From Methyloversatilis sp. RAC08 (lineage in GTDB: Bacteria; Pseudomonadota; Gammaproteobacteria; Burkholderiales; Rhodocyclaceae): a stretch of DNA of 64,000 nt. The position numbers and the translations under genes were made by a program. The stretch covers positions 3,162,001 to 3,226,000 of the forward strand of contig NZ_CP016448.1 in NCBI RefSeq assembly GCF_001713355.1, written 5' to 3'. Under the pieces are notes generated by a model, which saw nothing but the letters and a program-made list of their open reading frames with translations, was not told the origin of the DNA and did no database searches. Shown here piece after piece: positions 25,815 through 35,731 of the stretch; positions within the stretch are counted from its first letter, which is position 1, and every line of letters begins with the position of its first letter.

Positions 25815-26303
25815 TCAGAGCCGGCGGATCTTCTGCAGCAGCGCGCTGGTCGAGCGCTCGTGCTCGAAGGCGATGGATTCGACCCGGCCGCCCCAAGCGA
25901 GCACTTCGCGCGCGCCGACGATGCGGTCGATCGGCCAGTCGCCGCCCTTGACCAGCACTTCGGGGCGACAGGCGAGGATGAGCTCGAGCGGGGTATCGGC
26001 GTCGAACCAGGTGACCAGGCTGACCGATTCAAGTGCGGCGATCACGGCTGCGCGGTCTTCCAGCGGATTGACCGGACGATCATCACCCTTGCCGAGCTGG
26101 CGTACCGACGCATCGGTGTTCAATGCCACGATCAGCGAGCCACCGAGCGCGCGCGCCTGCGCCAGGCAGGTCACGTGACCGCGATGCAGGATGTCGAAGC
26201 AACCGTTGGTGAATACCCGAGGTCCGGGCAGATCGACAGCGCGCGCCGACAGATCGGCCGGCGCGCACAGTTTGCGTTCGAAGGCCGGTAGTCCGCCGTG
26301 CAT
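25815..26303 (-). CDS. rfaE2: D-glycero-beta-D-manno-heptose 1-phosphate adenylyltransferase
   Basis: This 162-aa nucleotidyltransferase corresponds to the C-terminal half of E. coli HldE. It would transfer AMP to heptose 1-phosphate for LPS inner core synthesis. The motif FTNGCFDILHRGHVTCLAQA contains the HxGH site, and STSALLQKIR near the C-terminus matches the ISTS/T motif. Betaproteobacteria often have separate kinase and adenylyltransferase genes, which fits. Its ATG shares one base with the stop of the upstream ferritin-like gene (TGATG), indicating coupling. The kinase gene is not in this window. Confidence 0.9.
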   Translation of the reverse strand: MHGGLPAFERKLCAPADLSARAVDLPGPRVFTNGCFDILHRGHVTCLAQARALGGSLIVALNTDASVRQLGKGDDRPVNPLEDRAAVIAALESVSLVTWFDADTPLELILACRPEVLVKGGDWPIDRIVGAREVLAWGGRVESIAFEHERSTSALLQKIRRL

Positions 26304-27133
26304 CAAGCAGCCGTGGCGAACTGCTTGCGGAAGCGGTTCAGGTCGCTGATGGTCTTGAAACTTTCGCCGAACAGCGAACTGAGATTGCGCAGGATGCCGC
26401 CGATGACGCGCGCTTCGCAATCCTTGTCGAAACGGATCTGCTGGTCCAGCCAGTGCTCGAGCCAGTCAGGGTCGGGCAGGCGGGACTGTATGGTGTCGCG
26501 CGGGTAAAGGTCTTTGCTGACATGCAGATTGGTCGGGTGCAGCGGCTTGCCGGCGCGCCCACTGGCTGCCATCAGCATGCCGATCTTTGAAAAGGCCGCG
26601 CGCGCCGTGTCGCCGGTGCGCTCGATCGCGCGCTTCATGTACTTCAGATAGGCGCCACCATGCCGTGCCTCGTCGCGCGACAGCAGGCCGTAGATGTGCT
26701 TGATGACCGGCTCGGTGTGCCATTCCGACGCACGGCGGTACCACTGGGTCAGCCGGACTTCGCCGCAGAAATGCAGCATCAGCGTTTCCAGTGCCGGTGC
26801 GGGATCGAATTCGAAGCGCACCTCGTGCAGTTCCTGCTCGGTCGGCGACAGGTCGGGCCGGAAGCGGCGCAAATATTCCAGCAGCACCAGCGAATGCTTC
26901 TGCTCCTCGTAGAACCACACTGACATGAAGGCGCAGAAGTCGGAGTCGTCGCGGTTGTCGCGCAGGAACATTTCGGTTGCCGGCAGCGCCGACCACTCGG
27001 TGATGGCATTCATCTTGATGGTCAGCGCCTGCTCGTCCGACAGCAGCGACGCATCGAAACCGTCCCAAGGCACGTCCTTGTCCATGTCCCAGCGGGCGGA
27101 TTCGAGTGACTTGAACAGTTCGGGGTAGAGCAT
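26303..27133 (-). CDS. Ferritin-like diiron protein, acyl-ACP desaturase-related
   Basis: This 276-aa helical protein has the carboxylate-bridged diiron pattern: ITEWSAL (Glu), WFYEEQKHS (ExxH), FCGEVRLTQWYRR (Glu) and SRDEARHGGAYL (ExxH). This is the ferritin-like fold related to acyl-ACP desaturases and similar oxygen-activating enzymes. The substrate is unknown. The start MLYPELFKSLES was chosen for its perfect GAGGAG site 7 nt upstream; a start eight codons earlier lacks one. A TAAAAT -10-like element on this strand lies at 27158-27163. It is translationally coupled to rfaE2 downstream. Confidence 0.82.
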   Translation of the reverse strand: MLYPELFKSLESARWDMDKDVPWDGFDASLLSDEQALTIKMNAITEWSALPATEMFLRDNRDDSDFCAFMSVWFYEEQKHSLVLLEYLRRFRPDLSPTEQELHEVRFEFDPAPALETLMLHFCGEVRLTQWYRRASEWHTEPVIKHIYGLLSRDEARHGGAYLKYMKRAIERTGDTARAAFSKIGMLMAASGRAGKPLHPTNLHVSKDLYPRDTIQSRLPDPDWLEHWLDQQIRFDKDCEARVIGGILRNLSSLFGESFKTISDLNRFRKQFATAA

Positions 27134-27348
27134 GGGCTGGCTCCTCGGAAAAACCACATTTTACGCGAGCACAAGTCAGCATGATGAATGCTGTGCATGT
27201 ACGACCGGTCAGATCAAACCACGTTCAGCAAGTCGCCGTTTAATGAAATAGACGGAAAAATGGGCCGTTATCGGGCCTGAGCGGCGTACCTGGCGCATAT
27301 TCAGGAGAAATTCCCGGCCGACTTGCGCTCGCCGGGCGAATCCGGAAC

Positions 27349-28299
27349 TCAGTTGATGGCTGCGATCGGTGGATCCGGCAGCCTTGCCGCGCGCCACTCG
27401 GCCAATGCCTCGGGCACGCTGCGGATGGCACCGATGACGGATACGCCAGGGATGCCTGCCAGTCGCTCGTGCGCGCCTGCTCCACCGACCCAGATATCCA
27501 CCGTGTCCGGCAGTGAATCGCGCAGGGTGCGAACGCCGGCAAGTGCCTGGCGCAACGGATAGGCGGCACTGAACGAGAGCGCCACGATGTCGGCCGCCGA
27601 TGTCAGGGCCGACGTGCGGATGTCGGTCAGCGGCATGCGGGGCCCGAGCGAACAGCATTGCGCGCCTTCGGAGGCCAGCATCACCTCCACCATCAGCAGC
27701 CCGAGGCCGTGCTCTTCCTCCGGCAATGTGGTCAGAAGGACGCGCGGCGGCGCAGCCGGACGGGTGTAATTGGCGAGGGTGCCACGCAGGAAGCTCTGCA
27801 CCTGCTCGGTGTAGAAATGTTCTTCCGGTACGCCGAGTTCGCCACGTATCCAGGCTTCGCCGATGACCACGTTGAGCGGCGCGACCAGATCCGACACCAG
27901 CGCCTGCAGCCCGCGTTCTAGCAGGCTGCGCTGAAACAGGCCGCGCAGCGCCGGCACATCGTGGCGCCGTATCGCCGCAAGTACCTCATCCGTCGGCACA
28001 CCGCCATCCGGCGCGACCGGCGTGCTTGCCTCGCGTTCGGCCTCGACAATCCGCTGCAGATCCGCCTCGCTGGCGGCCAGCAGCTTGCCTGGCCGCCAGC
28101 CTTGGTCGATCAATCTACGGATCAGGCGCAACCGATTGACGTCTTCCTGCGTATACAGACGCTCACCCGCTTCATCGCGGACAGGCTGAGGAAACCCATA
28201 ACGCCTTTCCCACACCCGCAACGTGTCTTTGGGAAGGCCTGTTTCGCGTTCGACGGCACTGATCGACATCCGACCGGATCCGTTGGTGTCATGTTTCAT
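27349..28299 (-). CDS. MerR-family regulator with B12-binding domain (CarH/LitR-type photoreceptor)
   Basis: This 316-aa protein has a MerR winged helix (residues 11-75: MSISAVERETGLPKDTLRVW, then ERRYGFP) and a C-terminal cobalamin-sensing module. The helical subdomain carries Trp150-x9-Glu160-His161, the signature that caps adenosylcobalamin in CarH. The Rossmann subdomain has EEHGLG (ExHxxG, His197 as cobalt ligand), the matching LGPRMPLTDI, a Ser in ALSFSAAYP and the GG of IWVGGAGA. In this family, dark adenosylcobalamin-bound protein represses, and light breaks the Co-C bond and releases DNA. It is divergent from the lipid-modification cluster. A perfect palindrome abuts its start codon, suggesting autoregulation. 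Light sensing is inferred from family features. Confidence 0.92.
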   Translation of the reverse strand: MKHDTNGSGRMSISAVERETGLPKDTLRVWERRYGFPQPVRDEAGERLYTQEDVNRLRLIRRLIDQGWRPGKLLAASEADLQRIVEAEREASTPVAPDGGVPTDEVLAAIRRHDVPALRGLFQRSLLERGLQALVSDLVAPLNVVIGEAWIRGELGVPEEHFYTEQVQSFLRGTLANYTRPAAPPRVLLTTLPEEEHGLGLLMVEVMLASEGAQCCSLGPRMPLTDIRTSALTSAADIVALSFSAAYPLRQALAGVRTLRDSLPDTVDIWVGGAGAHERLAGIPGVSVIGAIRSVPEALAEWRAARLPDPPIAAIN

Positions 28300-28300
28300 A

Positions 28301-28313
28301 TTGTCCTGGACAA
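28301..28313. promoter_or_regulatory. Operator O1 of the MerR/B12 regulator
   Basis: TTGTCC-T-GGACAA is a perfect 13-bp palindrome immediately upstream of the regulator start codon and 4 bp upstream of the -35 of the divergent promoter. It shares its six-base arms with O2 (28362-28378), 63 bp away centre to centre, about six helical turns. Confidence 0.75.
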
Positions 28314-28317
28314 ACCA

Positions 28318-28346
28318 TTGACACGGCGTTCATTGCACCCTAGATT
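28318..28346 (+). promoter_or_regulatory. Sigma-70 promoter of the lipid-modification cluster
   Basis: TTGACA (28318-28323), 17 bp, TAGATT (28341-28346): the -35 is perfect and the -10 matches 4 of 6. The transcript would start near 28353, between operators O1 and O2. On the opposite strand TGGACA (28365-28370), 17 bp and TAATCT (28342-28347) could be the regulator's own promoter, overlapping face to face. Confidence 0.7.
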
Positions 28347-28361
28347 AAGAGTGACATATAG

Positions 28362-28378
28362 TTTTGTCCAGGACAAAA
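28362..28378. promoter_or_regulatory. Operator O2 of the MerR/B12 regulator
   Basis: TTTTGTCC-A-GGACAAAA is a perfect 17-bp palindrome just downstream of the predicted start of the rightward transcript. A bound repressor would block elongation or early transcription, and its right half overlaps the likely -35 of the divergent regulator gene. Confidence 0.8.
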
Positions 28379-28392
28379 TTGGGGGATCAGTC

Positions 28393-28665
28393 ATGAAGCA
28401 CACTGCTGTAGCGGGATTGTTGTTTGCGGGAATGGGTGCTTTCAGCAGTGCATGCATGGCACGCATGCCGGGTGCTGATGAACCGTCCGCCGCGGCAAAG
28501 CCGGCGCAGGTTGCGCTGGCCGTGCCGGCTGGTGCTGCGCACAAACCGACGCCCAATGAAACGCTCATCCACCTGCACCGTGCGGTGACGGGCATCCATT
28601 TCCTGCCACCGGCGTTTTCCGAAACGGCGGTGCGCTGTTGCGAGCCCAGTCGTGCGTCTCGCTGA
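28393..28665 (+). CDS. Small lipoprotein of unknown function, first gene after the operator
   Basis: This 90-aa protein has a GGGGGA ribosome site and N-terminus MKHTAVAGLLFAGMGAFSSA followed by Cys21, which fits a lipoprotein signal. The mature part is Ala- and Pro-rich, then has NETLIHLHRAVTGIHFLPP and a Cys pair near the end (VRCCEPS). No known domain was recognised. Its 3' end overlaps the start of the glutathione peroxidase gene by 14 nt, so the two are probably co-translated. Its position directly after the regulated promoter suggests it belongs to the regulon. Confidence 0.6.
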   Translation: MKHTAVAGLLFAGMGAFSSACMARMPGADEPSAAAKPAQVALAVPAGAAHKPTPNETLIHLHRAVTGIHFLPPAFSETAVRCCEPSRASR

Positions 28666-29200
28666 CTGGCTGATTGCAGCTGCCTTGACACTGACGACCG
28701 GAGTCGCCATGGCTGATGCCTGTCCCACACTGCTTGACCGATCGCTGCCCGGCCTGCTCGACGGCAAGCCAAAATCACTGTGCGAATTCAGCGGTCGCGT
28801 GTTGCTCGTCGTCAATACCGCAAGCCGCTGCGGCTTTACCCGGCAGTACGAAGGGCTGGAAAAGCTGCAGTCACGTTTCGGTGCGCGCGGCCTTACCGTG
28901 CTCGGCTTTCCGTCAAACGATTTCGGCAATCAGGAACCGGGCAGTGACAAGGACATCGCGGAATTCTGCAGCATGACCTATGGGGTCAAGTTCCCGATGT
29001 TCTCGAAGACAGCCGTGAAGGGGGCGCAGCGTCATCCCTTTTACGCCGACCTTACGCGCCTGACCGGCGTCGAACCGGCATGGAATTTTCACAAGTATCT
29101 GATCGCCAGAGATGGCAGCACGATCACGTCGTTTCCGAGCAATGTAGCGCCGGAATCGCCCGAAATGATTGCTGCCATAGAGGCTGCACTGACGCGCTGA
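28652..29200 (+). CDS. Periplasmic glutathione peroxidase-family protein
   Basis: This 182-aa thiol peroxidase reduces lipid or hydrogen peroxides. The catalytic Cys is in VNTASRCGFTRQYEGLEKL, Gln in FGNQEPGS and the Trp-Asn pair in AWNFHKYL. It uses Cys rather than selenocysteine, and most bacterial members use thioredoxin more than glutathione. The GTG start at 28652 gives the signal peptide MRLADWLIAAALTLTTGVAM ending in ADA, so it should act in the periplasm. Starting at the internal ATG (28709) would remove it. A periplasmic lipid-peroxide reductase fits a response to photo-oxidative stress. It overlaps the preceding lipoprotein gene. Confidence 0.88.
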   Translation: MRLADWLIAAALTLTTGVAMADACPTLLDRSLPGLLDGKPKSLCEFSGRVLLVVNTASRCGFTRQYEGLEKLQSRFGARGLTVLGFPSNDFGNQEPGSDKDIAEFCSMTYGVKFPMFSKTAVKGAQRHPFYADLTRLTGVEPAWNFHKYLIARDGSTITSFPSNVAPESPEMIAAIEAALTR

Positions 29201-29305
29201 AAAGGGTGTCAATTTTCCGTTTGTGGGTGGTGTCAAGGTAGAGTTACGCTTGGTGCAGCGGAATGATCCGGCTGCAGGTCACCCGATTCGGTTTCCAGGA
29301 GAATT

Positions 29306-30589
29306 ATGAGGATTGCAGTCGTGGGTTCCGGAATTTCCGGGCTCGCAGCCGCATGGCTGCTTTCGCGCGAACACCAGGTCACGCTGTTCGAACAGAATGA
29401 CCGCCTCGGCGGTCATTCGAACACACTGGACGTCGAACTGGATGGCGTATGCCACCCCGTGGATACGGGTTTCATCGTGTTCAACCGGGCGACCTACCCG
29501 CATCTTTGCGGTCTGTTCGCGCATCTGGGCGTGGACATCGCGGACAGCGAAATGAGCTTTGGCGTCAGCCTGCGGGATTCCGGCATCGAGTGGAGCGGCA
29601 GCAGTCTCGCCACCGTGTTCGCGCAGCCGGCGAATCTGGCCCGCCCCAAGTTCTGGCGGATGCTGCAGGACATCATGCGCTTCAACAGCGAAGTGACCGA
29701 GCGGGCAGCCAATGGCAGCGCAGAGCACCTGTCGCTCGGCGAGTTCCTGGTGAAGCATCGTTACAGCGAGGCCTTCCGGGACTGGTATCTGCTGCCGATG
29801 GCGGCGGCGATCTGGTCCTGCCCGACGCGCACGATGATGGCTTATCCGCTCGCCACGTTTGCCCGGTTCTGCCACAACCACGGGTTGCTGCGCGTGAATG
29901 ACCGACCGCAGTGGCTCACCGTGCGTGGCGGCTCGCGCGAGTACGTGAAAAAGCTGGCTGCGCTGTTGTCGGACGTGCAGCGTGGCGCTGCAGTCACGCG
30001 TGTGCGTCGGGCAGAAGAAGGCGTGTGGATCGACGTGGGCGACGCGTCTCAATGCTTCGATCAGGTCGTGATGGCCAGCCATTCGGATGAGTCGCTGGCC
30101 TTGCTGGGCGACGCTGCGACGCAGGCGGAACGGAGGCTGCTTGGTGCCATACGCTATCAGCCCAACCATGCGGTGCTGCACACGGACTCGCAGTTGTTGC
30201 CGCGCAACCGCCGCGTCTGGTCTGCGTGGAATTACCTGGCGGGTGAAGGTGCGCCCGATGAGCGGCCGGTCAGCGTGTCCTACCTGATGAACCGGCTGCA
30301 GCCGCTGCCGTTCAGACAGCCTGTCGTGGTGACGCTGAACCCGTTCATCGAACCTGATCCAGCCCGCGTGATCGCACGTATCGAATACGCACACCCGTTG
30401 TTCGATGGCCCGGCGATCGATGCGCAGCAGCGGTTGCCCGAGATCCAGGGCCGCGACCGCATATGGTTCTGCGGCGCCTGGACTGGCTACGGTTTTCACG
30501 AGGACGGCCTGTCGTCGGCAGTGCGAGTGTCGCGGCAACTTGGTGCCGATGTGCCCTGGCAACGCAGCGAACCGGTGCTTGCCACATGA
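29306..30589 (+). CDS. FAD/NAD(P)-binding amine-oxidase-like protein (COG2907)
   Basis: This 427-aa flavoprotein begins with a dinucleotide-binding fold, MRIAVVGSGISGLAAAWLLS, then the FAD pattern LFEQNDRLGGHSNT. A C-terminal FAD-contact segment, WFCGAWTGYGFHEDGLSSA, completes the family features. COG2907 proteins occur next to DUF1365 and CFA-like genes in many proteobacteria; related flavoproteins are proposed to desaturate modified fatty acyl chains. The real substrate here is not shown. An AGGAG site precedes the ATG. Its stop overlaps the next start (ATGA). The 105 bp upstream contain two direct repeats of GGTGTCAA (29205-29212 and 29229-29236) that could mark an internal promoter. Confidence 0.9.
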   Translation: MRIAVVGSGISGLAAAWLLSREHQVTLFEQNDRLGGHSNTLDVELDGVCHPVDTGFIVFNRATYPHLCGLFAHLGVDIADSEMSFGVSLRDSGIEWSGSSLATVFAQPANLARPKFWRMLQDIMRFNSEVTERAANGSAEHLSLGEFLVKHRYSEAFRDWYLLPMAAAIWSCPTRTMMAYPLATFARFCHNHGLLRVNDRPQWLTVRGGSREYVKKLAALLSDVQRGAAVTRVRRAEEGVWIDVGDASQCFDQVVMASHSDESLALLGDAATQAERRLLGAIRYQPNHAVLHTDSQLLPRNRRVWSAWNYLAGEGAPDERPVSVSYLMNRLQPLPFRQPVVVTLNPFIEPDPARVIARIEYAHPLFDGPAIDAQQRLPEIQGRDRIWFCGAWTGYGFHEDGLSSAVRVSRQLGADVPWQRSEPVLAT

Positions 30590-31356
30590 TGGCTGCAAGC
30601 GACGTCAGTCTGTGCCGCGGCGCGGTCATGCATGAGCGAACCGCACGGGTCCGTCGCCGCTTCGCCTACCAGTTGTTCTTCATGCGTTTTCGCCTCGACA
30701 CGCTGGGCAAGTCGAAAATCCCGATGCTCGCGCTGAACCGCTGGGCGCCGTTGTCGCTGCACTATCGCGATCACGGCGCTCGCGACGGCTCCCATCCGCT
30801 GCCGTGGATACGCGCCCTGCTGGCGCAGGAGGGGCTGGCCGGCGTCGATGGGGACGTGGTCCTGCAGACCATGCCGCGGCTGTTCGGCTATGTGTTCAAC
30901 CCGGTCAGCTTCTGGTTCTGTCACGATACGGGCGGCGCCTTGCGCGCCGTGCTGTGCGAGGTCAGCAACACCTTCGGCGAACGCCATGCCTACCTGGTGT
31001 CGCATGACGACCGCCGCCCCATCCTGAATGGCGAGTGGCTGGAGACACGCAAGGTGTTTCACGTGTCGCCCTTCTTTCCGGTCAGCGGTCGCTATCGCTT
31101 CCGTTTCGATCTGCGCGGCACCCAGCACGCGGTCGCGATCGACTACTTCGAAGGCACGGAACGGCAGCTGCGCACGCGTGTCTCAGGTCGCGCCGTGCCG
31201 ATGAGCCGCGCCGTTGCGTGGCGTGCGCTGGCGGCTTTCCCGCTGATGACGCTGGGTGTGATCGCGCGCATACACATCCAGGCTTTTCACCTGTGGCGGG
31301 CGAATGTGCCCTTTTTCAGAAAACCGGCTCCTCCAGTACAGGAATTGACCCGATGA
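30586..31356 (+). CDS. DUF1365 family protein
   Basis: This 256-aa protein matches DUF1365 by its segments FAYQLFFMRFRLDTLG, MPRLFGYVFNPVSFWFCHD, EVSNTFGERHAYLV and KVFHVSPFFPV. The function is unknown; it is nearly always encoded between the COG2907 flavoprotein and a CFA-like enzyme, so it probably takes part in the same acyl-chain modification. A short hydrophobic stretch (FPLMTLGVIARIHIQAFHLW) near the C-terminus suggests membrane association. The start overlaps the upstream stop (ATGA) and the end overlaps the next start in the same way. A second ATG lies immediately after the first. Confidence 0.88.
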   Translation: MMAASDVSLCRGAVMHERTARVRRRFAYQLFFMRFRLDTLGKSKIPMLALNRWAPLSLHYRDHGARDGSHPLPWIRALLAQEGLAGVDGDVVLQTMPRLFGYVFNPVSFWFCHDTGGALRAVLCEVSNTFGERHAYLVSHDDRRPILNGEWLETRKVFHVSPFFPVSGRYRFRFDLRGTQHAVAIDYFEGTERQLRTRVSGRAVPMSRAVAWRALAAFPLMTLGVIARIHIQAFHLWRANVPFFRKPAPPVQELTR

Positions 31357-32567
31357 ACCAACCGGATGCCATGGTCGCGCTTGCGCGACACGGAAAGCTT
31401 CCATCGGCCGCGCGCCATGTATTCAAACTGCTCGAACGCATCGAGCACGGCTGGCTGATGATGTCTCTGCCGGACGGAGAGATGGTGTCCTTCGGCGGCC
31501 GGGGTCAGCCGGTCGAAATGCGCATCCTCGACTGGGGCGTGTTCGACCGCGTGATCGCGCGTGGTGACATCGGTCTTGGCGAAGCCTGGTTCGACGGCCT
31601 GTGGGATACCGACGAACTCGGCCGCGTGTTGACGCTGTTTGCGCAGAACCGCGACGCGCTGCAGCGCGCGGTGCACGGCAACCTGCTGGCACTGGTGTTT
31701 GCGCGCATGCGCCATCTCGGCCGTGCGAATACGCGACGAGGCAGCCGCCGCAACATCGTTGCCCACTACGATCTGGGCAACGAGTTCTACGGTCTGTGGC
31801 TGGACGGCAGCATGACCTACTCGAGCGCTCTGTACGAAGGCGACTCCCGGCGCGACCTGGAAGCGGCGCAGCTCGCGAAGTATCAGCGCATCGCACGCGT
31901 GATGGGGCTGACGGCCGACGACAGCGTGATCGAGATCGGTTGCGGCTGGGGTGGCTTCGCCGAGGTCGCAGCGCAGCGCGCCGGTGCGCGTGTGCATGGC
32001 GTGACCCTGTCGCCCGCACAGCTCGCATGGGCGCGACAGCGCGCCGAGCGCGGCGGCTACGCCGACCGCGCAACCTGCGAGTTGCGTGATTACCGGGATC
32101 TGCGCGGCAAGGCGTCGCACATCGTATCGATCGAAATGCTCGAAGCGGTCGGCGAGCGCTGGTGGCCGACCTATTTCGCCAAGCTCGACAGCCTGCTGGC
32201 ATCCGGTGGGCAGGCGGTGATCCAGACGATCAGCATCGCAGACGACCTGTTTTCGCGTTACCGTAAGGGAACTGACTTCATCCAGCAGTATATTTTCCCG
32301 GGCGGCATGCTGCCGTCACCCAGCGTGTTCGTGCAGCAGGCGGAGAAGGTCGGCTTGCACGTCCGTGACGATTTCCGCTTCGGTCTTGATTACGCACTGA
32401 CGCTGGCACGCTGGCGCGCCACCTTCGAAGCACGCACAGACGCGTTGCGCGCATTGGGTTTCGATCGTCGCTTCCAGCGGCTGTGGCGCTTCTATCTGGC
32501 GTATTGCGAGGCCGGCTTCCGCGCCGGTTCGATCGACGTTCATCAATTCCATCTGGAGAAAACCTGA
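31353..32567 (+). CDS. Cyclopropane-fatty-acid-synthase-like SAM methyltransferase
   Basis: This 404-aa enzyme has the CFA synthase layout: an N-terminal lipid-binding domain, then HYDLGNEFYGLWLDGSMTYS, the SAM motif VIEIGCGWGGFAEVA, and TDFIQQYIFPGGMLPS. In classical CFA synthases the bicarbonate site reads EHVG; here the equivalent is SIEMLEAVGE, so His is replaced by Ala. This suggests a related methyl- or methylene-transferring enzyme (for example UfaM-like methylation of unsaturated acyl chains) rather than a true cyclopropane synthase; that is inference. The start has AGGA upstream and overlaps the DUF1365 stop (ATGA). Confidence 0.9.
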   Translation: MNQPDAMVALARHGKLPSAARHVFKLLERIEHGWLMMSLPDGEMVSFGGRGQPVEMRILDWGVFDRVIARGDIGLGEAWFDGLWDTDELGRVLTLFAQNRDALQRAVHGNLLALVFARMRHLGRANTRRGSRRNIVAHYDLGNEFYGLWLDGSMTYSSALYEGDSRRDLEAAQLAKYQRIARVMGLTADDSVIEIGCGWGGFAEVAAQRAGARVHGVTLSPAQLAWARQRAERGGYADRATCELRDYRDLRGKASHIVSIEMLEAVGERWWPTYFAKLDSLLASGGQAVIQTISIADDLFSRYRKGTDFIQQYIFPGGMLPSPSVFVQQAEKVGLHVRDDFRFGLDYALTLARWRATFEARTDALRALGFDRRFQRLWRFYLAYCEAGFRAGSIDVHQFHLEKT

Positions 32568-33091
32568 TGCGCCGAATGCTTGTCTTGCTGTTGATGGTCG
32601 CCGGCATCGCGTCCGCCCAGCCGCTGGCGGGTGCCGGCGACTTGCTGCCCGATCTGAAACCGCTGGGCAAGGGTGAAATGCGCTGGTTCGGCTTCAAGCT
32701 GTACGACGCCTCCTTGTGGGCAAGCGGTGGCAGCTATTCGCCGGACGGCGGTTTTGCGCTGAGCATCCGCTATGCCCGCTCGTTCGAAGGCTACAAGCTG
32801 GCCGAAGCCAGCATCGACGAGATCAAGCGGCTGGGCGAACGTGACAAGAAGCGGCTGGCACGCTGGAAGGACGTTCTGACGGGCGTGTTTCCGGACGTGA
32901 AGGACGGCGACGTGCTGACCGGCGTGAAGATGCCGGACGGAAGTGCGCGCTTCTTCCATCAGGGTGCCGAATTGCCGGCCATCGAGGACAAGGCGCTGTC
33001 CGATGCCTTCTTCGCCATCTGGCTTGATGCCCGCACCCGCGAGCCGAAGCTGCGCGCCCGTCTGCTGGCCGAATCTCTCCCGTCCAGTTGA
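32567..33091 (+). CDS. Chalcone-isomerase-like exported protein
   Basis: This 174-aa protein has the signal peptide MRRMLVLLLMVAGIASAQP and a chalcone-isomerase-like fold pattern: GKGEMRWFGFKLYDASLWAS, ALSIRYARSFEGYKLAEAS and a C-terminal FFAIWLDARTREPKLRARLL. Bacterial members are not flavonoid enzymes; fatty-acid or lipid binding is a reasonable guess for the fold, and it is periplasmic here. Its ATG overlaps the CFA-like stop codon (TGATG) with GGAG upstream, so it belongs to the same translation-coupled chain. Confidence 0.85.
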   Translation: MRRMLVLLLMVAGIASAQPLAGAGDLLPDLKPLGKGEMRWFGFKLYDASLWASGGSYSPDGGFALSIRYARSFEGYKLAEASIDEIKRLGERDKKRLARWKDVLTGVFPDVKDGDVLTGVKMPDGSARFFHQGAELPAIEDKALSDAFFAIWLDARTREPKLRARLLAESLPSS

Positions 33092-34404
33092 GATCGGCGC
33101 GCCTGTTTGCGTATGGCGTGCTCGGCGCGCCGCTGGCCGCCGCGGCACTGCCCATCTACGTACATATTCCGAAGCTGTACGCCGACAGCTTCGGTGTATC
33201 GCTGACGGTACTGGGCATCGTGCTGTTCGCAGCGCGCCTGCTCGACGCGCTGGTCGACCCGCTGATCGGTGCTGCCAGTGACCGCGCACGGGGTCGCCGC
33301 CGGCTGGTGTGGATGGGTCTGCTGCCACTGGCGCTCGGGTTGCTTGCACTGGTGCGCCCGCCTGAAGGCACCGACCCGGTCTTCTGGCTGATCGGTGCGC
33401 TGGCGCTGGTCTATGCCGGCTACAGCATCAGCACCATCAACTATTACGCCTGGGGCGCCGAACTGTCGGCGACGCCGGCGCTGGGGACCCGGCTGGTCGC
33501 GGTGCGCGAAGGCTGTGCGCTGGTCGGTGTCGTCGCGGCGTCCATCGCGCCGGGACTGCTGTCGCCGGATGCGGCACAGGGGCTGTGGCAGGCGGTGCTG
33601 TACTGGCTGCCGCTGCTGGCGGTGAGTGCCGTCATCACGCTGTTTGCCGTGCCGGAGGCAAGCCGCGTGCAGCCGATGCGGCACGAGCCGTTGCGTGCCG
33701 TGTTGGGCGAGGTGCTGCAGAACCGGCGCTTCCGCCGCCTGCTCGCGGTGTTTGCGCTCAACGGCATCGCGTCGGCGATTCCGGCCACCCTGGTGTTGTT
33801 CTTCATCGCCGACGTGCTGGGCGCGGCCGAGCGGGAAGGACTTTTTCTGGCGCTGTATTTCGTCGCCGGCGTGCTCGCGCTGCCGTTGTGGACGCGCCTG
33901 TCCGACCGCTACGGCCGCGCGCGCAGCTGGGCCGCCTCGATGGTGCTCGCGATATCGGTATTCGCCTGGGCGTTCACGCTCGGCCCGGGCGATGACACGG
34001 CCTTCATGCTGATCTGCGCAGCTTCGGGCATCGCGCTCGGTGCCGACCTCGCGTTGCCGGCGGCGCTGGTGGCCGGCCTGGTCGGCCGGCGCGATGAGCC
34101 GCTGTCGGCTGGCGGCAGCTTCGGTGTGTGGAACTTCGTCACCAAGATGAACCTGGCGCTGGCGGCCGGCCTCGCGCTGCCGCTGCTCGGCCTGCTCGGC
34201 TATCAGCCGGGCGCCACCGACGCCGATGCACGGCTGGCGCTGGCCGCGGTCTATGGATTGGTGCCGCTGGCGCTCAAGGCGGCCGCCTGCGTGCTGCTGT
34301 GGCGCCATGCGGACTGGCTGGAACCGGAAGCGGAGCCCGAATCGAAGAGCGAAACGGGAACCGGAATTGCAACCGATGCCGAATACGGAGAACTGAAATC
34401 GTGA
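33088..34404 (+). CDS. MFS transporter (GPH/MFS_2 sugar-cation symporter-like)
   Basis: This 438-aa membrane protein has about 12 transmembrane segments. LLDALVDPLIGAASDRARGRRR is the typical loop 2-3 motif of the MFS_2 (melibiose-type) group, also found in lysolipid and lipid-related transporters. The substrate is unknown; its place in a lipid-modification cluster suggests lipid movement but does not prove it. The start is TTG, overlapping the previous stop (TTGA), and the end overlaps the next GTG start. The hydrophilic C-terminal tail (EPEAEPESKSETGTG) is unusual and acidic. Confidence 0.87.
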   Translation: MRSARLFAYGVLGAPLAAAALPIYVHIPKLYADSFGVSLTVLGIVLFAARLLDALVDPLIGAASDRARGRRRLVWMGLLPLALGLLALVRPPEGTDPVFWLIGALALVYAGYSISTINYYAWGAELSATPALGTRLVAVREGCALVGVVAASIAPGLLSPDAAQGLWQAVLYWLPLLAVSAVITLFAVPEASRVQPMRHEPLRAVLGEVLQNRRFRRLLAVFALNGIASAIPATLVLFFIADVLGAAEREGLFLALYFVAGVLALPLWTRLSDRYGRARSWAASMVLAISVFAWAFTLGPGDDTAFMLICAASGIALGADLALPAALVAGLVGRRDEPLSAGGSFGVWNFVTKMNLALAAGLALPLLGLLGYQPGATDADARLALAAVYGLVPLALKAAACVLLWRHADWLEPEAEPESKSETGTGIATDAEYGELKS

Positions 34405-34952
34405 ACTCGATGCTGTGGCGGATGAGGAGCTTCATCGGTGCGTTGTGCGCCGCGCTGCTGGTGGCCGGGTGTGGCGGCGTGGCGGTCGATCGCTATGCCG
34501 GGCAGACGCCGGCCATGGACCTGCGTACCTACTTCAACGGCACGGTCAATGGCTGGGGCATGTTCCAGGACCGCGGCGGCGAGGTGGTCAAGCGCTTCAC
34601 GGTGCGCATCGACGCACGCTGGGAAGGCGATACCGGCACGCTGGACGAACACTTTTCCTGGAGTGATGGCACGACCAGCCGTCGCGTTTGGACCATCAAG
34701 GATCTGGGCAACGGCCGCTACACCGGCCGCGCCGACGACGTGGTCGGCGAGGCGACCGGCGAAGCGAGCGGCAGTGCGCTGCGCTGGCGTTACGTGCTGG
34801 CGCTGCCGGTAGATGGCAGCGTCTACAACGTCGACTTTGACGACTGGATGTACATGATCGACGACAAGGTGATGCTGAACCGCTCGGCGATGAGCAAGTT
34901 CGGCATCCACCTCGGCGAGGTGACGCTGTCGTTCACCCGCGGCGCACCCTGA
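34401..34952 (+). CDS. DUF3833 family lipoprotein
   Basis: This 183-aa lipoprotein has a signal ending in AALLVAGCGG. The mature part matches DUF3833: LRTYFNGTVNGWGMFQDRGG, RFTVRIDARWEGDTGTLDEH, and VYNVDFDDWMYMIDDKVMLN. The predicted fold is an eight-stranded beta-barrel like a lipocalin, which may bind a lipid. GTG at 34401 was chosen because it overlaps the MFS stop (GTGA) and has GGAG upstream; an ATG three codons later is possible. Confidence 0.87.
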   Translation: MNSMLWRMRSFIGALCAALLVAGCGGVAVDRYAGQTPAMDLRTYFNGTVNGWGMFQDRGGEVVKRFTVRIDARWEGDTGTLDEHFSWSDGTTSRRVWTIKDLGNGRYTGRADDVVGEATGEASGSALRWRYVLALPVDGSVYNVDFDDWMYMIDDKVMLNRSAMSKFGIHLGEVTLSFTRGAP

Positions 34953-35731
34953 TGTTCGCGCCGCTGAATCCGCCGCTGGCCGACTGGTCGGGCAAACGCG
35001 TCTGGCTCATAGGCGCATCGTCCGGCATCGGTGAAGCGCTGGCGCGCCGCTTGATGGCCCAGGGCGCGCGGGTGGCGCTGTCGGCGCGCAGTGCTGACAA
35101 GCTGGCGGCGTTGTGTTCGGTGTCTGCGCAGGCGGCCGCGCTGCCGCTCGATGTGGCCGAACCTGACGCATTGGCCGATGCGGCTGCCACGCTCACCGCG
35201 CGCTGGGGTGGCATCGATGTCGTGCTGTTCGTCGCCGCACGTTATCAGGCGGTGCGTGCCTGGGAGCTGGATCCGGCGGACATCGACGCCACGCTCAACA
35301 CCAATGTCGCCGCCGTCATGAAGGGCTGTGCCGCGGTGCTGCCGGGCATGCTGGCCGCGCAGTCGGGTGCGCTCGTCATCCTGTCCAGCGTGGCGGGATA
35401 TCGCGGCCTGCCGAAGGCCATCATCTACGGCGCGACCAAGGCGGCGCTGATCAATTTCGCCGAAACGCTCTTCATGGACGTTCGGCCGCGCGGACTGGGC
35501 GTGCATCTGGTGTGCCCCGGCTTCGTCGAAACGCCGCTGACCGCACAGAACGACTTCAAGATGCCGGCGCTCATTACCGCCGACGAGGCGGCCGGTCACA
35601 TCCTGAACGGCCTCGCCCGCGGTGACTTCCACATCCACTTTCCGCGTCGCTTCACGCGCTGGCTGCTGCTGCTGCGACTGCTGCCCTACCGGTTGTATTT
35701 CGCCGCGGTACGGCGGATGACCGGGCTTTGA
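34952..35731 (+). CDS. Short-chain dehydrogenase/reductase
   Basis: This 259-aa SDR has the NAD(P) motif GASSGIG (residues 21-27), the Ser of VILSSVAGYRG and the catalytic YGATK. Substrate is unknown; a ketone or hydroxyl group on a modified acyl chain or quinone is possible given the cluster. The basic, hydrophobic C-terminus (RFTRWLLLLRLLPYRLYFAA) suggests membrane contact. Its ATG overlaps the DUF3833 stop (TGATG), and it is the last gene of the coupled chain. Confidence 0.92.
   Translation: MFAPLNPPLADWSGKRVWLIGASSGIGEALARRLMAQGARVALSARSADKLAALCSVSAQAAALPLDVAEPDALADAAATLTARWGGIDVVLFVAARYQAVRAWELDPADIDATLNTNVAAVMKGCAAVLPGMLAAQSGALVILSSVAGYRGLPKAIIYGATKAALINFAETLFMDVRPRGLGVHLVCPGFVETPLTAQNDFKMPALITADEAAGHILNGLARGDFHIHFPRRFTRWLLLLRLLPYRLYFAAVRRMTGL

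Follow-up and report, generated by a model that had tools for sequence, protein, structure and literature searches.

A CarH/LitR-type regulator divergent from a conserved, predicted furan-fatty-acid operon in Methyloversatilis sp. RAC08

The model B12 photoreceptor, CarH, has been treated in the context of carotenoid control. Its operators are described as tandem 11-bp repeats, and those of the related CarA as two inverted repeats (PMC9304148). In Pseudomonas mendocina, a likely nine-gene operon with genes for a short-chain dehydrogenase/reductase (SDR), an FAD oxidoreductase and the methylase UfaM is induced by light, ufaM by 25- to 33-fold, and PmlR2, a class II LitR protein without a B12 domain, is reported to bind and repress its promoter until it is itself bound by a LOV protein activated by light (PMC9758184). 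In Vibrio cholerae, blue light raises expression of a gene resembling those of cyclopropane-fatty-acid (CFA) synthases and part of the response depends on a MerR-like gene; this gene lies with phr and the CFA-like gene elsewhere, and the passages on it mention no role for B12 (PMC5241685). Furan fatty acids are reported to arise from the joint action of three enzymes, the S-adenosylmethionine (SAM) methylase UfaM, the NAD-FAD-binding desaturase UfaD and the O2-dependent DUF1365 protein UfaO, which yield a methylated furan fatty acid on phospholipids (PMC7380195). Here we analyse a locus of Methyloversatilis sp. RAC08, whose genome is one 3.94-Mb contig, within a stretch of 64,000 nucleotides called the window (all coordinates are those of the window). 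A gene for a LitR/CarH-type MerR regulator of 316 aa (27349..28299, - strand) lies there divergent from an operon that encodes all three furan-pathway enzyme families together, and the 113 homologues aligned place it in a large conserved branch tied to furan-fatty-acid genes.

We consider it likely that the regulator, bound to adenosylcobalamin (AdoCbl), represses this operon in the dark and releases it in the light, and the operon probably makes furan fatty acids, lipids thought to be antioxidants. The proposal is built on domains, motifs, operators, promoter, synteny and predicted fold. In the mechanism that we infer from them, an AdoCbl-dependent repressor of the CarH/LitR kind would serve one promoter; in the dark it would occupy both palindromes around that sigma-70 promoter and block RNA polymerase, and light would photolyse AdoCbl, release the repressor and allow expression. 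The UfaM-like enzyme would then methylate a monounsaturated phospholipid acyl chain, the UfaD-like enzyme would desaturate the methylated chain and the UfaO-like protein would insert O2-derived oxygen to give a methylated furan fatty acid, which, alongside an exported peroxidase, would scavenge light-generated oxidants. A literature search over titles and the starts of abstracts found no B12-binding LitR or CarH linked to ufaDOM; this is weak evidence of absence, as subscription papers, probably including the LitR class papers cited in PMC9758184, lie mostly outside such a search. New here is the palindrome pair around the operon promoter, which is conserved in relatives. The locus makes it possible to test furan fatty acids as a light-induced membrane defence.

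Of 199 genomes sampled from the family, 80, among them that of the window, have a match to the regulator at E <= 1e-20. The closest named relative by regulator is a Methyloversatilis metagenome-assembled genome (91 per cent identity), and M. discipulorum stands at 70 per cent. Forty regions from the regulator search and 78 named loci gave 118 loci, or 112 with distinct upstream sequences after removal of identical ones; these 112 and the window make up the regulator alignment of 113 rows. A smaller alignment (A1) holds 38 regulators and the window, 39 rows in all, L040 and L041 being left out for a stop in the extended frame. Synteny was counted in the 94 of 112 loci whose available sequence reaches 8.5 kb or more into the operon side; the relatives were picked by regulator similarity, and the count is silent on the frequency of ufaDOM without the regulator. 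Since ufaD-ufaO-ufaM lie divergent from the regulator in 85 of the 94, and all seven genes from UfaD to the SDR (adding those for the chalcone-isomerase-like (CHI-like), MFS, DUF3833 and SDR proteins) are kept in 76, the gene arrangement is not due to chance. Three loci (L053, L091 and L094) carry two tandem regulator copies beside the cluster and apparently represent one or two lineages.

The assignment of the three enzymes goes by family, not by alignment with authentic Ufa sequences. The COG2907-type flavoprotein (29306..30589, +; PF01593, PF13450), whose nearest solved protein is LkcE, is UfaD-like and a predicted acyl-chain desaturase. The DUF1365 protein (30586..31356, +; PF07103, 248 bits), the only DUF1365 match in the genome, is UfaO-like and a predicted furan-forming oxygenase. 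The SAM methyltransferase of the CFA-synthase family (31353..32567, +; PF02353), one of two strong CMAS matches in the genome, is UfaM-like. A reading made from the sequence alone, without database searches (the sequence-only reading), had suggested 'perhaps furan' for the acyl-chain product, and the three family matches strengthen that idea; it had also left the chemistry wholly open, which is too cautious for such proteins elsewhere, where it is established (PMC7380195), and still holds for this organism. The same three enzyme types make up the R. sphaeroides and Rhodopseudomonas palustris pathway, and the consecutively tagged R. palustris genes RPA2571-2570-2569 are reported to suffice in a triple mutant of Rhodobacter sphaeroides (PMC7380195).

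Residues of the UfaM-like enzyme bear on which lipid is made. Rows for this comparison were the best tblastn segments longer than 330 aa without stops, 92 including the window. We take C139, H240 and H266 of the Escherichia coli CFA synthase to be catalytic. In the window their places hold Ser, Ala and Gln, and the same substitutions run through the set (C139 to Ser or Ala in 90 of 92, H240 to Ala and H266 to Gln in 92 of 92). The second CFA enzyme of the genome keeps Cys, His and His. Judged on these cluster rows and the second enzyme, the three positions separate the UfaM-like enzyme from an ordinary cyclopropane synthase. It is nonetheless conceivable, though unlikely, that the operon makes some other modified lipid, methyl-branched or cyclopropane or formed via the CHI-like, SDR and DUF3833 proteins. 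The genes RSP1087-1089, which we take to encode an SDR, a DUF3833 protein and an MFS transporter, bear on this alternative. Lying beside ufaD-ufaO in R. sphaeroides, they are described as dispensable for furan fatty acids (PMC7380195), so that the role of the conserved downstream genes would lie elsewhere. Overexpression of a Halomonas ufaM in E. coli is likewise reported to give a methylated alkene, with cyclic acids also detected. Against another lipid stand the three furan-pathway enzyme types side by side, as in RPA2571-2570-2569 by locus tag, and the presence of a second CFA enzyme with ordinary residues in the same genome. The downstream proteins are of similar length in the two organisms: RSP1089, 1088 and 1087, which follow ufaO, have 402, 186 and 245 aa (PMC7380195), and the MFS, DUF3833 and SDR proteins of the window 438, 183 and 259 aa. 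In R. sphaeroides, unlike in the window, ufaM (RSP2144) lies apart from the operon (PMC7380195).

For UfaO, an enzyme whose cofactor is reported as unknown, the locus offers many sequences and a confident fold model. The model scores 93 in the predicted local distance difference test (pLDDT) and is mostly beta with C-terminal helices. In alignment A2 (57 of the 92 rows and the window, 58 in total) H16 is invariant, and H63, H134, H159 and H230 occur in at least 90 per cent of rows; a metal or heme site is possible on this model. A fold search gave no PDB match at E 0.001 or better and a sequence search against the PDB none up to E 1. The fold bears a weak likeness to the fatty-acid-binding Ycf58 and to nitrobindin/lipocalins, and these matches (Ycf58 at E 0.0097, a mutant nitrobindin at 0.013, TM-score about 0.3) were too weak to name the cofactor. 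Among the 25 listed of 99 plasmid records for UfaO, none was recognised as characterised.

The regulator itself resembles TtCarH and class I LitR in its MerR domain, its four-helix and Rossmann cobalamin domains, its Trp, Glu, His and His binding residues and its fold. Its winged-helix DNA-binding domain of MerR type is clear (PF13411, E 1.6e-16), and Pfam assigns MerR_1, B12-binding_2 and B12-binding. The closest solved proteins are the Thermus CarH structures (TtCarH, E 1.3e-34); the AlphaFold model (pLDDT 91.6) has CarH 5c8d as its top Foldseek match (E 2.7e-20) and superposes on chains of the isolated cobalamin domain mostly at about 2.4-3.3 Angstrom. The Wx9EH motif is described as capping the adenosyl group and, together with the B12-binding motif, as defining CarH homologues (PMC8156234). 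With the V/T position and the last spacing relaxed, Wx9EH and ExHx2G-x41-S..GG are found in 113 of 113 regulators. The sequence-only reading had the regulator keep every cobalamin-sensor feature. This stands for W150-x9-E160-H161, E195-x-H197-xx-G200, S242 and G272-G273, all invariant in 113 of 113, and it does not stand at three places, where the window has Ile for the Trp-adjacent His132 of TtCarH, SxS for SxV/T and ExxH for GxxH. The last of these belongs to the CarH motifs of SignatureFinder, GxxW, EH, GxxH and GxxxP (PMC11796333): GxxW, EH and GxxxP are present in 113 of 113, and the Gly of GxxH in 10 of 113. The strict motif ExHx2G-x41-SxV/T-x22-27-GG is matched by 2 of 113. Since 111 of 113 have Ser in place of the V/T, the regulator is best described from its sequence as a CarH-like variant and not as a canonical CarH. 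Residue C215, in the Rossmann part, is kept in 111 of 113 and, in a pairwise alignment with TtCarH, faces an Ala.

AdoCbl is plausibly available to the host, because the genome encodes a PduO-type cobalamin adenosyltransferase (PF01923, 190 bits) and has one cobalamin riboswitch and four other B12-binding matches above cut-off. The genome profile search gave no CobA/BtuR-type match, and the list of open reading frames (ORFs) around the riboswitch held nothing informative.

The promoter region is simple and precisely laid out. Two exact TTGTCC-N-GGACAA palindromes, operator 1 (TTGTCCTGGACAA, 28301..28313) and operator 2 (TTGTCCAGGACAA, 28364..28376, with 8-bp arms if flanks are counted, in the predicted early transcribed region), flank the sigma-70-type promoter TTGACA-17-TAGATT of the operon (28318..28346, +); no further exact copy exists in the genome. 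The sequence-only reading mentions neither. Operator 1 lies 4 bp upstream of the -35 element and ends 1 bp from the regulator start codon, which suggests autoregulation; operator 2 begins 17 bp past the -10 element, as in most relatives. With one mismatch allowed, two further genome sites appear, both within reading frames. At two mismatches the two matches of the window are unremarkable (45 of 100 shuffles). When at most one mismatch is allowed, the upstream sequences of the relatives contain 195 sites, spread over 100 of the 112 loci, whereas every one of 20 dinucleotide-shuffled sets yielded 0 or 1. The sequence case for the operators is thus carried by exactness, position and conservation. 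A wider regulon of exact operators was considered and rejected, the two one-mismatch sites being inside reading frames and both photolyase matches far from exact operators. On the - strand, operator 1 contains by eye an AGGA 4 nt before the regulator ATG, a possible Shine-Dalgarno sequence.

Pairs were sought only at 50-100 bp with at most two mismatches per site, a mismatch limit that applies also to the operator frequencies, and 88 of the 112 relatives have one. The spacing is 63 bp in 59, 62 or 64 in five, 73-77 in 20, and 58, 58, 80 and 86 in four, with none at 65-72. Among the 59 loci with the 63-bp spacing, 52 have 17 bp from the start of operator 1 to that of the -35 and 17 bp between the end of the -10 and operator 2. 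The wider class is longer by about one helical turn, and in 17 of its 20 members the added length is upstream of the -35: in these 17 the distance from the end of the -10 to operator 2 is still 16-17 bp, and the -35 lies 27-32 bp from the operator 1 start. The remaining three fit more poorly; in one, the promoter match that scores best is on the other side. A quick tree of the regulators, in which 34 of 110 forks are open, has the six-turn and seven-turn classes switching at least six times. Judged from these spacings, operator 1 tends to keep its helix face relative to the promoter, as would fit contact between repressors at the two sites or a single bridging oligomer. An 11-bp register with the -35 is compatible too, since the CarH half-site TnnACA is matched by TGGACA as well as by TTGACA. 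In the window TGGACA of operator 1 and TTGACA of the -35 start 11 bp apart, with no further in-register repeats and with operator 2 inverted, and a full TnnACA occurs at the two 11-bp offsets in 51 and 35 of the 64 six-turn loci. A full CarH-type tandem 11-bp array was rejected: at the middle position only 3 of the 20 seven-turn loci fit, and further repeats are absent. TtCarH operators have three or four tandem 11-bp repeats, unlike the two separated palindromes of the window. As CarH uses tandem repeats and CarA two inverted repeats, the paired separated palindromes look like a design distinct from known CarH operators.

A third operator-like site lies 116-284 bp downstream of operator 2 in L039, L043, L050, L083 and other loci (46 sites in total). 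Those inspected are inside ORF1, the first reading frame of the operon, and code for V-Q-D or a similar tripeptide; they could be intragenic operators or merely a conserved peptide. The window has no such third site at up to two mismatches.

Several observations weigh against a light-released AdoCbl repressor of a furan-fatty-acid operon. The Pfam B12-binding match of the regulator scores 29.6 bits against a cut-off of 32.1, and the NCBIfam equivalog TransRegCarH is missed (143.3 against 400 bits). SxS replaces SxV/T in 111 of 113 regulators, the window included, and His follows the Trp in 0 of 113 (Met in 51, Leu in 34, others in the rest). A Trp-adjacent His is reported in many CarH homologues (PMC9304148), and in TtCarH this His132 is described as becoming the upper ligand in the light, its H132A variant staying mostly tetrameric after illumination, yet an earlier study saw H132A disassemble after light (PMC10442372). 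Nine of the 94 relatives have no ufaDOM beside the regulator, 24 of 112 have no operator pair under the criteria used, and the one-mismatch operator pattern, with 4 places in the genome where the reversed control has 12, is not enriched. Finally, the Ufa assignments go by family and description.

The missing histidine also bears on an alternative: that the regulator controls the operon and does not sense light through B12, being similar to CarA or to class II LitR and needing an antirepressor such as a short LOV protein. There are precedents, as a class II LitR governs a related ufaM operon in Pseudomonas with a LOV partner and without B12 (PMC9758184), and CarA is described as retaining the B12 motif and yet being B12-independent (PMC8156234). 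The likenesses are incomplete. Class II LitR is described as having no C-terminal B12-binding domain, whereas the window regulator has a Rossmann B12 domain with the motif residues, and CarA is said to lack the Trp of Wx9EH. Both B12 motifs are kept in 113 of 113 regulators, which argues for continued cobalamin binding, and we judge this alternative improbable, somewhat more so than that of a different lipid. For an AdoCbl-dependent light switch, the branch is informative in itself, since one current account of CarH release relies on a histidine that it lacks. The branch must therefore release by another route, or it tests which of the two H132A reports is right, and the need for His132 in light release becomes open to experiment.

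The furan genes of R. sphaeroides are tied to the RpoE/ChrR response. Singlet-oxygen control of the cluster by an RpoE-ChrR-type sigma factor, with the divergent regulator as a minor modulator, is very improbable: furan fatty acids are reported to be raised in an R. sphaeroides chrR deletion mutant (PMC7380195), but 0 of the 10 cluster proteins scanned is an extracytoplasmic-function sigma factor or ChrR (rpoE and chrR were not searched for in other nearby ORFs or the rest of the genome), and a near-consensus sigma-70 promoter is fixed between two conserved operators.

The locus can be set against that of Pseudomonas for the repressor and its promoter. The PmlR1/PmlR2-PplR system likewise has a LitR-family regulator and an operon with FAD oxidoreductase, SDR and ufaM genes, and one of its operators is placed at the -35 and one between the start site and the ATG (PMC9758184). 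Unlike in the window, the Pseudomonas operator is TGTACA-N12-TGTACA, and the system is described with a LOV partner and no B12 domain (PMC9758184). Its regulon includes a GTP cyclohydrolase gene, folE; here 41 of the 94 relatives have folE2, for GTP cyclohydrolase IB (identified by PF02649, 296 bits, in one relative), on the side of the operon, 39 of them before a ufaD and two (L085 and L129) with no ufaD in reach; an example is L052:7912-8733 (-). A photolyase gene is described in the Pseudomonas cluster, whereas both photolyase matches found in this genome are outside the cluster of the window. Because a related ufaM operon, a LitR repressor and a like operator placement occur in Pseudomonas, the outputs and the promoter plan look shared and the photosensor different. 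Compared with TtCarH, the window branch differs in having no His next to the Trp and SxS in place of SxV/T, and in a lipid operon as target where TtCarH has carotenoid genes. We put forward, tentatively and as less probable than not, that the betaproteobacterial branch dropped the bis-His ligand and that one AdoCbl oligomer bridges the two same-face operators, six or seven turns apart, photolysis opening the loop and so switching on a membrane antioxidant.

All genes named in the sequence-only reading were found in place by ORF list and sequence. Good support for its idea of a photoreceptor of the B12 type transcribed divergently from a lipid-modification operon comes from domains, fold, conserved motifs and synteny, and the gene identities and positions are borne out by ORFs and Pfam (GSHPx, amine-oxidase/NAD-binding flavoprotein, DUF1365, CMAS, Chalcone_3, MFS_2, DUF3833 and adh_short) with one exception. 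ORF1 (28393..28665, +; 90 aa, defined by frame and start context) is a small exported-looking protein, which had been called a lipoprotein; it has no canonical lipobox by eye and no match in the Pfam search. The lipobox, LVAGC by eye, is in the DUF3833 protein (34401..34952, +; PF12915, 232.5 bits). The ORF1 C-terminus is by eye similar in seven same-genus rows. In many relatives an exported-looking ORF of about 65-115 aa stands in its place, often ending near a KLFLHR-like stretch (by eye).

The glutathione-peroxidase-family protein (GPx; 28652..29200, +; PF00255, E 1e-33) has an N-terminal signal-like segment and a GTG start, with ATG 28709 possible; 47 of the 94 relatives have such a gene on the side of the operon. 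Downstream of ufaM come a chalcone-isomerase-like protein, exported by appearance (32567..33091, +; PF16036, E 4.5e-8), a GPH-type MFS transporter (33088..34404, +; PF13347, with TIGR00792 under its cut-off), the DUF3833 protein and the SDR (34952..35731, +; PF00106). The claim of stop-start overlaps at nearly every junction is confirmed, at 7 of 8 junctions with the GPx start at GTG 28652 and at 6 of 8 with ATG 28709: six overlap by 1 or 4 nt (ATGA, ATGA, TGATG, TTGA, GTGA and TGATG), and that of ORF1 with GPx would be 14 bp from GTG 28652. The sole clear non-overlapping junction is a gap of 105 bp between the GPx and COG2907 genes (29201-29305), the place of folE2 in relatives; the window has no folE2 on the operon side.

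On its other side the regulator is adjoined by a gene on the same strand (26303-27157, -) for a protein of 284 aa. It matches FA_desaturase_2 at 31.4 bits, above the cut-off, with no single stretch passing, and AurF under the cut-off, and is perhaps a diiron protein on these matches. It is found somewhere in the fetched locus of 25 of 112 relatives, and across eight relatives having it the identity is 79-91 per cent, higher than that of the regulator.

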